Made by a program: the position numbers and the translations under genes. Positions 30,480 through 34,853 of a stretch of 64,000 bases of DNA are shown piece by piece. A model generated the notes under the pieces. It was not told the origin of the DNA, ran no database searches, and saw only the letters and a list, made by a program, of their open reading frames with translations. Each line of letters starts with the position of its first letter. Position 1 is the stretch's first letter. The DNA lies in the NCBI RefSeq assembly GCF_006337065.1, contig NZ_CP040872.1, forward strand, positions 2,790,001 through 2,854,000, read 5' to 3'. The stretch is from Agromyces laixinhei (GTDB lineage: Bacteria; Actinomycetota; Actinomycetes; Actinomycetales; Microbacteriaceae).

Positions 30480-30977
30480 ATGGAGTTGAACACGTTGCCG
30501 TACTGGTTGACGAGTCCGCAGCTGCTTCGAGTCTCTCGCGAGAGCATCGTCCACGATGCGACGATCGAGTGGCAGCTGATCGAGGACTACCGCTGGGCGG
30601 TGCCAATCGTGTGCCCAGCGTTCGGTACGGCTGAAGCTCGAGCGAACGACGCGTTCGAGGCATTGTGCCTCGTGCGCGAACAGTTGGAACCGTACGGGTG
30701 GCGAATCGGCCTCGCCGGATCACAGGTGGACGTGTGGCCCAGCGGCATGGCCCGGGACCAGGGAGCGGATCGGGTGGGAGCACTCGCTGACGATCCTGAA
30801 GGACCGGATCCGGCACACAGGGAGATCCAGGCACACGAACCAGACGTTGATGCGGAACGCGACTACACGTTGAAGCGGAACTCCACCGGGTTCCGGCACG
30901 TACGGCCGTCTCATAACCTGATGGCACGACCCAGACGAGTCAGACCAGTGCGAGCGTCTCCACGGGCTGCCCGGTGA
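30480..30977 (+). pseudogene. Truncated hypothetical gene ending in repeat copy A
   Basis: From the ATG at 30480 the first 97 or so codons look genuine (TIEWQLIEDYRWAVPIV, REQLEPYGWRIGLAGSQVDVWPSGMARD). After about 30770 the composition changes. The frame then runs through the ychF-like repeat at 30846-30887 and into the vapC 3' end, so the true C-terminus is lost or replaced. I do not recognise the family. Confidence 0.4.
30846..30887. repeat. ychF 3'-end repeat, copy A
   Basis: 37 of 42 bases match copy C (33379-33420), and 27 of 29 bases of its right part match copy B (31712-31740). Read on the minus strand it ends VEFRFNV-stop, the usual YchF C-terminus, followed by TCGCGTTCCG as in copy C. 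Similarity to the ychF coding sequence stops after CTCCACC. Confidence 0.85.
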
Positions 30978-31353
30978 CCTCAGCAATGAGCTCGAAGTCC
31001 TTGTCAACGGCCAAGACCGTCAGCCCAGCCTTCTCCGCGGTCGCTGCGATGAGCAGATCCGGGATGGACGGGGCGCGATGCTGGCCACGGTCGGCAAGGA
31101 GCATCTGCACCTCGAAGGCGCGGTCCTCCATCGCGGGTGTGAGGTGCTCGATCGGCATGAGCGACAGCGGGGGCAGCCCGAAAGCCTCGCGACCTGCTTG
31201 ACCTGAACGGGCAGAGAAGCCAAGTTCGAGCCGCGTCACCGGCGAAAGACGCAGCAGCCCACGCTCGATGCGCGAGTTCCACTCAGCCAAGCTCTCCGCT
31301 TGACCTCCCTGCATGCGCACGTATGCCGACTTGTCGACCAGCCAGCTCGTCAC
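30940..31353 (-). CDS. vapC: VapC-family PIN-domain toxin
   Basis: 137 residues from the GTG at 31353, which overlaps the antitoxin stop as GTGA; a GTG two codons earlier is also possible. The PIN acidic residues are present: D in WLVDKSAY, E in VTRLELGF, D in [17 protein letters not shown], and D in [18 protein letters not shown] toxins cleave RNA and are held inactive by the cognate antitoxin. The stop lies about 50 bases from repeat copy A. Together with vapB it fills the module between repeats A and B. Confidence 0.9.
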
Positions 31354-31574
31354 CGCCACGCCGCATCCATCACGTCAGGATCGGCAAGGTCCTCGAACGC
31401 CGCCGCCGAGCGACTCCAGTCATCGGCAGTGACCGTCGCGGCGACCGGAGTCGAGGCGTCCTGCTCGAGTCGCCGACGAAGGAACTCGTTGCGCGATAGT
31501 CCGAGGGCCGCCGCCTCAGCATCGATGTGCTCGACGGCAGCCTCACTCAGTCCACGGATCAGCACGTTCGACAT
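31350..31574 (-). CDS. vapB: VapB-family antitoxin
   Basis: 74 residues from the ATG at 31574, with GGAGGTGG eight bases upstream. The N-terminus [20 protein letters not shown] followed by [19 protein letters not shown] is a ribbon-helix-helix type DNA-binding domain. The C-terminal [23 protein letters not shown] would wrap the toxin. It is encoded just before vapC with a 4-base overlap. The palindrome at 31595-31610 is its probable operator. Confidence 0.88.
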
Positions 31575-31594
31575 CGTGACCACCTCCAGAAAAA

Positions 31595-31610
31595 TGATAT
31601 CGCGATATCA
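31595..31610. promoter_or_regulatory. Palindromic operator of vapBC
   Basis: TGATATCGCGATATCA is a perfect 16-base palindrome, 20 bases upstream of the vapB start and just before its ribosome site. VapB proteins normally repress their own promoter by binding such sites. Confidence 0.75.
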
Positions 31611-31711
31611 CTCGCGGAGTCGAGCGTCGCCCGTCCGAACAGCAAGCCAGTGCAGTTCATTGATCCCGTCTGACGCACCTCGCGCGGCATGAAGGTCACA
31701 GTGCACAGGGC

Positions 31712-31752
31712 GCAACTAGACGTTGAAGCGGAACTCCACCACGTCGCCGTCG
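31712..31752. repeat. ychF 3'-end repeat, copy B
   Basis: The 27 bases at 31726-31752 are identical to 34827-34853 in the resident ychF gene, in the same orientation. On the minus strand it reads [15 protein letters not shown]. It lies 9 bases from the stop codon of the hydrolase remnant. Confidence 0.95.
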
Positions 31753-31761
31753 ATAACAACC

Positions 31762-32534
31762 TCAGTTGAGCCAGCGGGTGAGCACGTCGATCCACTCGTC
31801 GAAAGCGTCGAGGTGGGCATCATGACTGCCACCACTGAGGTCGACTCGAACAGTGGAGGGTCGGCGACGCACGAGCTCATCCTTGGCGGATGCCGAGAAC
31901 ATGCCCTGAGACGCGAATTTCGCGAGCGTGGGCACCTTCAATCCCTCCCATTCGGGCCAGCGCGACTCGTGCACAGCCTCGAGCGTGCGTTGCACGATGT
32001 CAGCATCGAACCGTGGCATGAGCCCCTGCTCGGTGACCTCGAGGTCAGCGATCCACGCGTCGACGATGGCATCCTCCCCGAGAAATGACCGCGCCGCGGC
32101 ATCTTCCGGAAACGGTGTGGGCCACGAGGCGAACCAGCGTCCGATCGCGGCAGCCTCTTCCGGATCGTCGCTGCCGGCGACATGCCCCTCGAGCATCACC
32201 AGGCTCCGGACGCGGTCGGGTTGCATGACTGATGCGAGAAAGGCCGTGTGCGCGCCCATCGACTGACCGACGAGGACACACCCCTCCCCCGGCGCGAAGG
32301 CGTCCATGACTACCACGACATCGCCTACGAATGCGGCACGCGACAGATCATCCGGCCTGCGCGTACTCCGACCATGGCCACGCTGATCAACCAACAGCAC
32401 GCGAGTCCCTTGAGCGCTCGCCCGGTCGACAAGAGCTCCCGAGAGCTTCCTGCCAAGCCGTGAAGCAGAAGCACTACTGACCCCTCACCACCGAGATCCG
32501 TGACAGAGATCGTCACTCCACGATGATCGAGCAT
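31762..32534 (-). pseudogene. Alpha/beta hydrolase with a frameshift
   Basis: The N-terminal frame (ATG 32534) reads GVTISVTDLGGEGSVVLLLHGLAGSSREL, a typical hydrolase start with the oxyanion HG. At about 32411-32435 homology moves to another frame: GTRVLLVDQRGHGRS, then the nucleophile elbow LVGQSMGAHTAF, and the catalytic His in SGGSHDAHLDAF before the end. A single-base indel explains it. The product is inactive unless read by frameshifting or unless the sequence has an error. Bases 32535-32800 upstream hold only short open-frame fragments that I cannot assign. Confidence 0.8.
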
Positions 32535-33430: not shown

Positions 33431-33450
33431 GGTTAGCAAGCCGGAGGTGA

Positions 33451-34206
33451 CTAACCACAGTGACTCATGGCGTTGCCCGGGGCAGGCGATTCCAGCAGCT
33501 CAGCGAGATCCGCGCCGGCTCGAAGAAGCGCGACCGAGCGAGCGGCGATGTTGCTCAGCTGACTGCGGAGCGCCTCCCGGGCGTCGGTGGCGCTGTCGAG
33601 GTCGCGGAGGGAGACCATGACGCCGTGGATCGCGGGAATGCGGTAGCCACCCGCGCGAAGGGCAGCGACGACCCGTGCATCCCTCACAGCACCCGGCGGG
33701 TAGCACCGCACCGACTGAGACCCGCCACGCTCGGGCGCGACCAGCCCTTCCGCCTCCCAGAAGCGGAGCGTCGAGGCGCGCACGCCGAGAGCAGCGGAGA
33801 GTTCCGTGATGCTCATCGAGTCGCCCGGAACGACGGGCGGCTCGTCTGCGCTTTCATCGACGATGGAGTCCAGTGCGCGAAGCGCAGCGAGAGCGTCCTC
33901 TCGCTGCCGCGCAAGACCGACGTGGAGCACCACGATCCGGGCGACGGCTTCGTCGTGGGGCAGGCGTCGGATGTCTTGCATCGTTGCGCGCGCGGCCACA
34001 GGACCGACCGAGATCGCGAGGTCACGGTAGGCACGCAGCGCGGTGACATGAATCCGGGTGAACCGCCGATACCCGTTGCTCTGTCGAGCAGATGACGGAA
34101 TCACTCCCAAGCGCTCGAGGTCGCGAATCTGTTGCACCGAATAACTGGAAGCTGCGGCAACCTGACTCGTCGTGTACCACTCAAGCTCCGAGCCAGTCGT
34201 TCGCGC
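33451..34206 (-). CDS. MerR-family regulator with two HTH domains
   Basis: 251 residues from the GTG at 34206, behind GGAGGG; an earlier GTG at 34242 lies inside the palindrome. Two winged-helix MerR domains occur in tandem: residues about 10-60 (YTTSQVAAASSYSVQQIRDLERLGVI, then GYRRFTRIHV) and residues about 130-195 (SITELSAALGVRASTLRFWEAEGLV, then RCYPPGAVRDARVVAALRAGGY). No cysteine metal site is apparent, so the ligand is unknown. It is divergent from the DUF6194-type gene with an operator-like palindrome between. Confidence 0.85.
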   Translation of the reverse strand, partial: ARTTGSELEWYTTSQVAAASSYSVQQIRDLERLGVIPSSARQSNGYRRFTRIHVTALRAYRDLAISVGPVAARATMQDIRRLPHDEAVARIVVLHVGLARQREDALAALRALDSIVDESADEPPVVPGDSMSITELSAALGVRASTLRFWEAEGLVAPERGGSQSVRCYPPGAVRDARVVAALRAGGYRIPAIHGVMVSLRDLDSATDAREALRSQLSNIAARSVALLRAGADLAELLESPAPGNAMSHCG

Positions 34207-34230
34207 CACGTGGACAACCCTCCATAAGCA

Positions 34231-34250
34231 CTTCAACTCCACACTTGAAG
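34231..34250. promoter_or_regulatory. Inverted repeat between divergent MerR and DUF6194 genes
   Basis: CTTCAA (34231-34236) and TTGAAG (34245-34250) form an inverted repeat spanning 20 bases, in a 45-base intergenic space. MerR-type operators have this size and sit between promoter boxes. It could control both genes. Confidence 0.55.
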
Positions 34251-34251
34251 C

Positions 34252-34740
34252 ATGAACATGACACAGATCCTCTCAGAGATCCGAACCTTCGACGGCCTCC
34301 TCGAACTCGCCCCGCTGCCAGGGAGCGAGCATCCGACGGTCTCGTGGGGCGACCACTTCTTCTACTACGCCCCGGACGGCCAGGTGCCGCGCAACCGTCA
34401 GCCCTACGCGACGATCGTCACGAAGAACTACCCGGACGACGAAGAAAGCCGACTCGACGACGAGGACCGGTGGCGACTGAACATCCACGTCGGAACGAAC
34501 ATCTTCACCGACCTCCTCGGCCACCAGCCTGACGAGATCGACGAAGCCGCTGTGGATTACAGTGTCACGGACACGTTCCTGCCGCACCCTCTGTACGGCA
34601 CATACGGGTGGGTGTGCATCGTCAACCCGGCCGACGCCACCACCGAACGAGCTTTGGAGGCTCTGCGCATCGCCCATCAGGACGACCAGCGACGCGTCGA
34701 GCGCCGCCAGAGCCGAGGCGACGCCTCGCAGAACGGGTAA
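34252..34740 (+). CDS. DUF6194-like protein of unknown function
   Basis: 162 residues. Typical segments are HPTVSWGDHFFYYAPDGQVP, PYATIVTKNYPDDEESRL, WRLNIHVG and the ending FLPHPLYGTYGWVCIVNP. It resembles DUF6194 proteins, small cytosolic proteins often next to regulators; assignment is from memory. Its start is 45 bases from the divergent MerR gene, which probably controls it. It ends 76 bases from the ychF stop, within the module between repeats C and D. Confidence 0.75.
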   Translation: MNMTQILSEIRTFDGLLELAPLPGSEHPTVSWGDHFFYYAPDGQVPRNRQPYATIVTKNYPDDEESRLDDEDRWRLNIHVGTNIFTDLLGHQPDEIDEAAVDYSVTDTFLPHPLYGTYGWVCIVNPADATTERALEALRIAHQDDQRRVERRQSRGDASQNG

Positions 34741-34810
34741 CCGTGGTCGCCGACAACACGCTCGCCAAGCTGTGGGTCATCGCCTCAGCTCCGGGTCCTC
34801 GGCGGCCCAC

Positions 34811-34853
34811 AGAGGTTCAGTTCGAAAAGCGGAACTCCACCACGTCGCCGTCG
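34811..34853. repeat. ychF 3'-end repeat, copy D (resident gene end)
   Basis: 34827-34853 is the 3' end of the intact ychF and equals 31726-31752 exactly. Outside the stop codon it carries CAGAGGTT, shared with copy C. Here the final codons read FRFSN-stop, while copies A and B end FRFNV-stop. Confidence 0.92.

Follow-up and report, generated by a model that had tools for sequence, protein, structure and literature searches.

How did four copies of the 3' end of one housekeeping gene come to punctuate a run of accessory genes? The question is raised by the region behind ychF, which encodes the redox-regulated ATPase YchF, in a 64,000-nucleotide window of an Agromyces genome (positions 2790001-2854000 of a 3.44-Mb, one-contig assembly). 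A sequence-only reading of the window had proposed serial site-specific integration into the ychF 3' end of small modules moved in trans. Comparison with other loci and genomes (here given L and G numbers, respectively) suggests, with good confidence, that non-autonomous cassettes are stacked in this array at the ychF 3' end, which would serve as the bacterial attachment site (attB) of phage-type large serine recombinases (LSRs).

The resident gene lies at 34817..35890 on the minus strand (Pfam YchF-GTPase_C, 4e-38; MMR_HSR1, 5e-22). All four 3'-end copies described from the sequence were recovered in place and on the ychF strand: the resident end and three displaced sites, referred to as C, B, and A with increasing distance from the gene. 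All 27 positions of copy B (31726-31752) are identical in the resident end (34827-34853), as had been noted, and copies A and C match by 87% over 47 nt. On the minus strand, A and B read VEFRFNV*, C reads VEFRFYV*, and the resident gene ends in VEFRFSN*, so that every copy reaches a stop within two codons of VEFRF, in agreement with the initial description. In copies A and C, the stop is followed by a second ychF-end-like piece.

The association with ychF extends across the genus. With ychF located in all 60 genus genomes, all extra matches to GTSGAGTTCCGSTTCAACGT (at most one mismatch) are downstream of ychF and co-oriented with it, at distances of up to 17.7 kb (G005), and the pattern read backwards gives no match. 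Because the extra copies are all linked to ychF and the reversed pattern is absent, the window repeats are not due to chance; neither do they represent a dispersed element unrelated to ychF. The length of the region also differs between genomes: from ychF to the point at which the gene order common with the relative G009 (L033) resumes, at about 27643 in the window, the distance is 7.2 kb in the window genome versus 2.2 kb in G009. A looser scan of 55 genus loci found a further same-strand copy (at least 23 of 29 positions) in 13 loci, compared to one on the other strand, and weaker further copies in L034 and L063. The genus comparison covered 54 of the 59 other genomes, with four (L094-L097) left out and G050 ending at ychF.

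Many displaced copies have a left arm of the type GNAACNCGG instead of the native GGCGACGTGG, which results in a layout of a foreign 26-nt half-site, the dinucleotide GT, and the ychF half. Among 174 unique displaced sites (identical sites counted once, and 92 whose left arm is native-like set aside), conservation of the left half (CAGAkGTTnnTcnGTGCCGGAACkCG) reaches approximately 26 nt before GT, and that of the right half, GGAGTTCCGCTTCAACGT, reaches the ychF stop with little past it, although conservation of the core and right half arises partly by construction, as the scan demanded both. An in-frame stop at codons 7-9 is kept in 156 of the 174 sites, and VEFRFNV* in 120. The 92 sites set aside comprise 89 that look like true ychF ends and three displaced copies (L154, L036, and L043). 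Half-sites of this size are typical for serine integrases. The displaced copies are thus very probably attR sites (P-GT-B', with P the phage-type half and B' the ychF half), and phage-type LSRs of one group would have the ychF end as their attB (B-GT-B'). The XerCD/dif system was set aside, as we take the site to be unlike dif.

Within the family, a hybrid of the GNAACNCGG type (at most one mismatch) occurs in 24 of 299 genomes, which represent 22 of 85 genera; the reversed control gave 0, and five of the genomes have two or three such hybrids. An exact-pattern search of one genome each for 84,980 species returned 72 stretches, all actinobacterial, with carriers in Microbacterium, Rhodococcus, Nocardia, Arthrobacter, Brevibacterium, Tessaracoccus, Nonomuraea, Saccharopolyspora, and others. 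Further site-like matches in these stretches (at least 17 of 20 positions) are all on the same strand, with none on the reverse strand, and 31 of the 72 carry ychF or a ychF end on the site strand, the only strand for which ychF was listed. The pool of compared loci includes these 72 stretches and 23 family stretches, both sets selected for matching the site pattern; the pooled stretches are mostly 8-18 kb long. Over 1.99 Mb, a 33-nt P-arm matrix (score at least 14) gave 249 matches on the ychF strand and three on the other, the 249 being uncleaned and including native ychF ends and the loci from which the matrix was built. Three P-type sites with scores of at least 20 are also found within 12 kb on a Nocardia farcinica replicon filed as plasmid 2 (L099, NZ_LN868939.1).

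Empty sites, which the earlier reading had suggested looking for, were identified in relatives of other carriers: L045 against L035 (94% over 491 bp), L062 against L033 (83% over 463), and L047 against L068 (76% over 498). Repeated gene ends could also stem from homologous recombination that duplicated the end of ychF, or from a dispersed repeat placed by coincidence, and duplications do occur, as a displaced ychF 3' piece of approximately 200 bp in G054 and a doubled phnA in L045 show. As the main cause this explanation is refuted by the foreign P half-sites, which are conserved across genera, and it also conflicts with the linkage and shared orientation of the extra copies throughout the 60 genomes; it can be given almost no weight. 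The G054 piece lies at about +5890 to +6095 past ychF (L036), covers residues 293-356 at 83% identity, exceeds the usual half-site in length, and perhaps reflects another integration route. In L045, phnA lies on both sides of the attR site (about +1 to +350 and +1330 to +1690 past ychF), the two copies being near-identical up to the stop codon, which suggests that a native neighbor gene was captured inside a cassette.

Within the window, the P-arm scores are 35.2 for site A, 29.5 for B, 16.4 for C, and 14.9 for the resident end. Native ychF ends (n = 71) score 2.2-18.1 with a median of 12.4, and one in L201 reaches 19.6. Sites A and B are clear P-B' junctions because their scores exceed this native range. 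Site A (30846..30912, minus strand) has GT at 30885-30886, the P arm GAGACGGCCGTACGTGCCGGAACCCG, and a right half reading VEFRFNV*; the top counterparts of its arm are found at sites in L238 (21/24) and L250 (20/24), compared to 18/24 for the best reverse-strand match. Site B (31712..31765, minus strand) has GT at 31738-31739, the P arm CTGAGGTTGTTATCGACGGCGACGTG, and a right half reading VEFRFNV*, with top counterparts at the L193 and L227 sites (21/24) and a reverse-strand best of 19/24. By score, site C (33375..33445, minus strand; GT at 33418-33419, right half VEFRFYV*) is doubtful as a P-B' junction, and so is its putative P arm, TCCGGCTTGCTAACCGCGGCGACGTG, which matches the L167 site at 19/24 and the L198 site at 18/24; matches of at least 17/24 are no rarer on the reverse strand (85 against 61). 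The resident junction (34811..34866, minus strand) consists of the ychF half (B), GT at 34839-34840, and a variant right half, TCCGCTTTTCGAACTGAACCTCTG, ending VEFRFSN*, which matches L167 at 21/24 and L252 and L198 at 20/24. The ychF 3' end as the landing site of the array is supported.

Which recombinase would act on these sites? The search for a ychF-linked enzyme had been left open to tyrosine or serine recombinases, and it was LSRs that were found beside the sites. Complete attP sites (the phage attachment site) adjoin an LSR in the viral contigs L270 and L112, with a 26-GT-26 structure and outer 13-nt arms that are symmetric at 12 of 13 positions; among 2,257 GT-centered 54-mers used as a control, one reached 10 and none was higher. 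The LSR frame runs off the contig in L112 and is split over two open reading frames in L270, and the P' half of both sites would end YchF as VEFRHR*, as read from the sequence. An LSR adjoins the hybrid site in nine further cases (viral L102, L104, L107, and L109; genomes L151, L154, L161, L219, and L238), and all eight LSRs examined contain the Resolvase and Recombinase domains. The LSR likely to be responsible would be carried by phages or integrative elements and would perform the attP x attB exchange at GT, the crossover being inferred from the symmetry of the site. The type is common, as tblastn with the L109 LSR matched 1,071 phage records, with top identities of about 34-44% (e.g., the Microbacterium phages SuMoo and Percival). 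In two of the phage stretches (L257 and L258) there was no P site with a score of at least 14, and a typical P site used as a DNA query gave one good match, to an unannotated gut contig.

One genome locus, L161 (G135), contains what looks like an autonomous integrative element or satellite. The element spans 7.65 kb (4299-11950 in the ychF orientation); ychF ends in VEFRHS* on one side, and the LSR lies beside a P-B' site at the end opposite ychF. In addition to the LSR (by Pfam), it encodes by eye a WhiB-like protein, a 631-aa primase-polymerase-like protein, and a small resolvase. Within the genus, G032 (L066) also has a VEFRHS* end, and the stretch examined there contains no LSR.

Tyrosine integrases also use this gene end. 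In the Streptomyces satellite phage Mulchroom (L098, OQ784832.1), a ychF-end copy at 7344-7377, likely the attP, lies 75 bp from a tyrosine integrase; a term search of the paper on this phage (PMC10690885) found no ychF, attP, or attB. A tyrosine integrase is likewise located next to a ychF end in viral L101, L103, and L111, and about 0.85 kb from one in L106. Elements of this kind are nevertheless very improbable builders of the array: the copies linked to tyrosine integrases retain the native left arm, an LSR is always among the recombinases adjoining P-arm sites (L109 has both kinds), and scans of the compared array loci detected no tyrosine recombinase. The scans consisted of a home-made hidden Markov model (HMM) over the pooled loci and PF00589 over the window genome, six genus genomes, and 23 family genomes. 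The home-made HMM, which misses L092 (found by PF00589), gave no tyrosine recombinase in any of 94 stretches with strong sites, and in all 23 family genomes no Phage_integrase lay near the array among the matches listed, the nearest on the same contig being 86 kb away. A tyrosine recombinase as mover of the arrays was therefore rejected, none being found at them by either method. The claim that the window contains no recombinase stands for tyrosine recombinases, as none of the six PF00589 matches in its genome lies inside the window, and for the L161 LSR, to which that genome has no match, other serine recombinases not having been searched for in the window.

The units between sites are small and shared. 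P sites with a score of at least 20 number 180, in 94 of 139 stretches (a pool of 144 minus five repeats, L157, L166, L153, L160, and L045, equal to L200, L203, L220, L243, and L248), and 44 of the 94 stretches have two or more. The 128 cassettes whose right boundary scores at least 18 have a median length of 1,175 bp (quartiles 743 and 1,906), and 99 are shorter than 2 kb; cassettes with identical first 200 bp were counted once, the threshold of 18, also used for the genus loci, is not perfectly clean because a few native ends reach 18.1 or 19.6 (L201), and long units are under-counted because of the length of the stretches. Near-identical cassettes are shared by Thermocrispum L193 and Brachybacterium L204, members of two orders (99.0% over 1,875 bp), by L204 and Brevibacterium L226 (98.8% over 1,313), by Ornithinimicrobium L235 and Agilicoccus L246 (98.3% over 2,646), and, at 93.7% over 1,191, by Arachnia L210 and the family member L150. 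Boundaries were compared for 15 cassette pairs. In the 11 without the window, similarity is 0.76-1.0 inside the cassettes and 0.57-0.65 outside (random median 0.63, 95th percentile 0.67), the left outside of L193 being only 23 nt long; the exception is L168/L150, at 0.78 on the outside left, as both start from ychF itself. Paired cassettes have the right P arm in common (0.83-1.0) and mostly not the left one (0.54-0.79); the right arm goes along with its cassette.

These hybrid junctions and empty sites, and the similarity that stops at the sites, support the proposed serial integration at the ychF 3' end. The modules also lack machinery of their own, as suggested from the window: a full-length LSR occurs in five of the 94 strong-site stretches (L214 and L241 have weak pieces only), and a tyrosine recombinase, by the home-made HMM, in none. 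An alternative is that the modules are decayed LSR prophages, immobile and reduced from whole elements to their ends and a gene or two. The genome of the window has no LSR of the group, some of the sites and modules look decayed or fused, and CIMEs (cis-mobilizable elements) are said to arise by decay in the part of PMC5704250 available. Decay is an improbable source of the array, considering that near-identical small cassettes with the same two ends recur in different taxonomic orders and beside differing neighbors and that the median over 128 cassettes is 1.2 kb.

Hybrid sites, attP beside LSRs, cassette boundaries, empty sites, and shared cassettes are read from the compared sequences; how the cassettes move can be proposed from them. 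A serine integrase joins attP and attB, and a directionality factor lets attL x attR reverse the reaction. In the proposed arrangement, the P half-site would close the cassette that lies toward ychF, as its 3' end, and the right half with the stop codon would open the next cassette. Travel by accretion with an LSR element is the somewhat favored route. The element would integrate at ychF in front of existing cassettes; excision between attL and a more distal attR would then yield a circle of the element plus cassettes, which would integrate at the ychF of a new host; finally, the element would exit via the proximal attR, restoring the ychF end and leaving the cassettes. Such cis-mobilization explains the junctions by ordinary chemistry, and the VEFRFNV-stop frame would be kept in displaced copies because each can become a real ychF end again. 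Accretion predicts an LSR element followed by cassette sites, and further P sites do lie distal to the LSR in two of the five LSR-bearing stretches (L151 and L238), neither of which reaches ychF. Movement in trans, as first suggested, is plausible, but single-cassette P-B' circles inserted one by one into the B-B' ychF end by LSRs acting in trans are the less probable route; this would require P-B' x B-B' pairing, which is unexpected for ordinary serine integrases.

Several observations weigh against a stack of LSR-targeted cassettes. The support is comparative throughout, drawn from sequences. The scores of site C and of the resident end fall within the native ychF range, and a P site scoring at least 18 is present in only seven of 54 genus loci (window included), plus G005. 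The joined half-sites of L161 are symmetric at 10 of 13 positions, equal to the best control. Most junctions have a ychF-like right half and not a P' half, so that a lone excised cassette would carry P-B' and no normal attP; a right-half class in the window, AACCTCTG, is a tentative candidate for a P' mirror, and remains so because it is 2-3 nt out of symmetry with CAGAGGTT. LSR homologs are found in 20 of the 60 genus genomes (best 228 bits), but in 12 of these loci, scanned for the site core and not with the P-arm matrix, no core adjoins the LSR, and the only 11/12 core match lies about 0.7 kb from it (L175). The genome of the window has no match to the L161 LSR, and its array may now be immobile because no LSR of the group is present. 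Module 1 of the window (see below) has no counterpart in the compared loci, and the first 110-125 nt of module 3 are unmatched, likeness to its relatives beginning only at position 112. Some native-like copies may also stem from tyrosine-integrase elements because these use the same gene end.

The four sites delimit three modules in the window. Module 1 (33420..34838, 1.4 kb, from the resident end to C) encodes a DUF6194 protein (34252-34740, plus strand; Pfam DUF6194, 7e-55) and a MerR-type regulator (33451-34242, minus strand; MerR_1, 2e-23). Module 2 (31740..33417, 1.7 kb, from C to B) encodes, by Pfam, a Phd/YefM-ParE type toxin-antitoxin pair (about 33071-33313 and 32801-33058, both minus strand) and an alpha/beta hydrolase (31762-32400, minus strand). 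Its positions 1-623 match L251 (71%), and about 70-615 match L189 (74%) and L093 (72%); positions 908-1649 match L218 (69%), and 951-1619 match L234 (68%). Module 2 therefore appears to be two fused cassettes, a toxin-antitoxin cassette as in L251 and a hydrolase cassette as in L218. Module 3 (30887..31737, 0.85 kb, from B to A) is a VapBC-type toxin-antitoxin cassette with a ribbon-helix-helix antitoxin (31350-31583, minus strand; RHH_1, 3e-4) and a PIN toxin (30940-31359, minus strand; PIN, 3e-8). Its relatives lie between sites in three other actinobacteria: L232 (84.9% over 736 bp), L195 (Nocardia jinanensis; 73% over 670), and L192 (Phytoactinopolyspora limicola; 70% over 688). In the pairs that include the VapBC module of the window, the first 200 nt are unlike (0.60-0.64) and the right end is alike (0.73-0.83), with the arm at 0.62-0.71.

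The array does not clearly stop at site A: the first 69 nt past it match cassette starts in L211 (90%) and L242 (89% over 65), and 30816..30884 (minus strand) may be the start of a further, decayed module. A methyltransferase domain fragment, covering the C-terminal half of the profile only, is located at 29944-30399, where the sequence separating site A from the conserved flank is degenerate.

The cargo of the cassettes is diverse. A Pfam and PADLOC scan covering 140 of the 208 predicted cassette proteins (the first ones, which all come from L185-L249) identified 130 Pfam families, including helix-turn-helix proteins, toxin-antitoxin systems, GNAT acetyltransferases, TetR regulators, short-chain dehydrogenases/reductases, glyoxalases, and PIN domains, and PADLOC, at a permissive E of 1e-3, named AbiE and AbiD among others. 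Genes run with ychF in 131 of the 208 cases and against it in 77. A HigA-like antitoxin gene, recognized by eye, recurs at the ychF sites of several genera, accompanied by differing second genes (L238, L150, L168, L157, L151, and L210), and is a candidate for studies of cassette recombination. In L159 (G335), about +4039 to +7649 past ychF, a large insert encodes by eye an OLD-like ATPase and two cyclase-like proteins, possibly anti-phage systems.

The array can be compared to several known systems. Tandem arrays of staphylococcal cassette chromosomes (SCC) and recombinase-less SCC units exist. Like SCC and the enterococcal cassette chromosomes (ECC), the ychF system would have an LSR insert variable cargo into the 3' end of a conserved gene, and it has several attR sites; the text available for ECC gives several attR sites in 16 of 32 and a size of 21-78 kb (PMC6222049). 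The array is not SCC because its target is ychF and not the rlmH/orfX 3' end; moreover, its cassettes are about 1 kb compared to 21-78 kb for ECC, its hosts are actinobacteria, and the LSRs at ychF are single phage-type genes in contrast to ccrAB, no search with ccr models having been made here. CIMEs, in the available text of PMC5704250, keep att sites, lack integration genes, and stack at one site, accretion explaining their movement. The cassettes resemble them in their flanking att sites and in that 89 of the 94 strong-site stretches lack a full-length LSR within the stretches searched, but they differ in having one to few genes, in units that occur across orders, and in a ychF-side end that is a restored attB half and not attL.

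Integrons array short cassettes at one site, carry toxin-antitoxin and acetyltransferase cargo, and have the same cassette in different arrays, and their attC sites have RYYYAAC and GTTRRRY boxes and a single-strand fold. All of these cassette features recur here, but the array is not an integron because there is no IntI at the arrays and no attC consensus: the consensus GNAAC-N8-GTTCCG lies inside double-strand serine half-sites with a GT core, and genes occur in both orientations. The features of an LSR attachment system are present, namely an attP of about 50 bp, inverted half-sites around a dinucleotide, and an adjoining LSR, the last not in the window genome; Mulchroom is alike in having the ychF 3' end beside an integrase and unlike in that the integrase is a tyrosine integrase. 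By analogy, the system would work like SCC and CIMEs, with cassette sizes like those of integrons.

Among the literature matches listed, judged from titles and the beginnings of abstracts and with most subscription papers outside the coverage, none describes arrays of cassettes at ychF, or a serine integrase acting at the 3' end of this gene. A pneumococcal prophage attB is described upstream of ychF in the available portions of three papers (PMC8637289, PMC10383233, PMC6375853), adjoining a DUF951 gene and away from the ychF 3' end in two of them (PMC8637289, PMC10383233). YchF is named once, in a table of prophage contents, in the available part of PMC8460829, and a term search of PMC10654092, on mycobacterial prophages, found no mention of ychF.

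If the proposed reading is true, actinobacteria would have a system of cassette exchange in which a phage serine integrase and a housekeeping gene take the place of the integron, and by which toxin-antitoxin and other genes could be swapped between distant bacteria. It would account for the recurring accessory region behind ychF, its boundaries could be used to locate toxin-antitoxin and perhaps anti-phage cargo, and it would be a source of natural attP/attB pairs whose attB is broadly conserved. It would also become testable whether small cassettes bounded by sites originate by accretion with a helper element or by movement in trans. Should the cassettes move in trans, a single pool of cassettes, with toxin-antitoxin, anti-phage, and other genes, would be common to the actinobacteria that have this ychF end.

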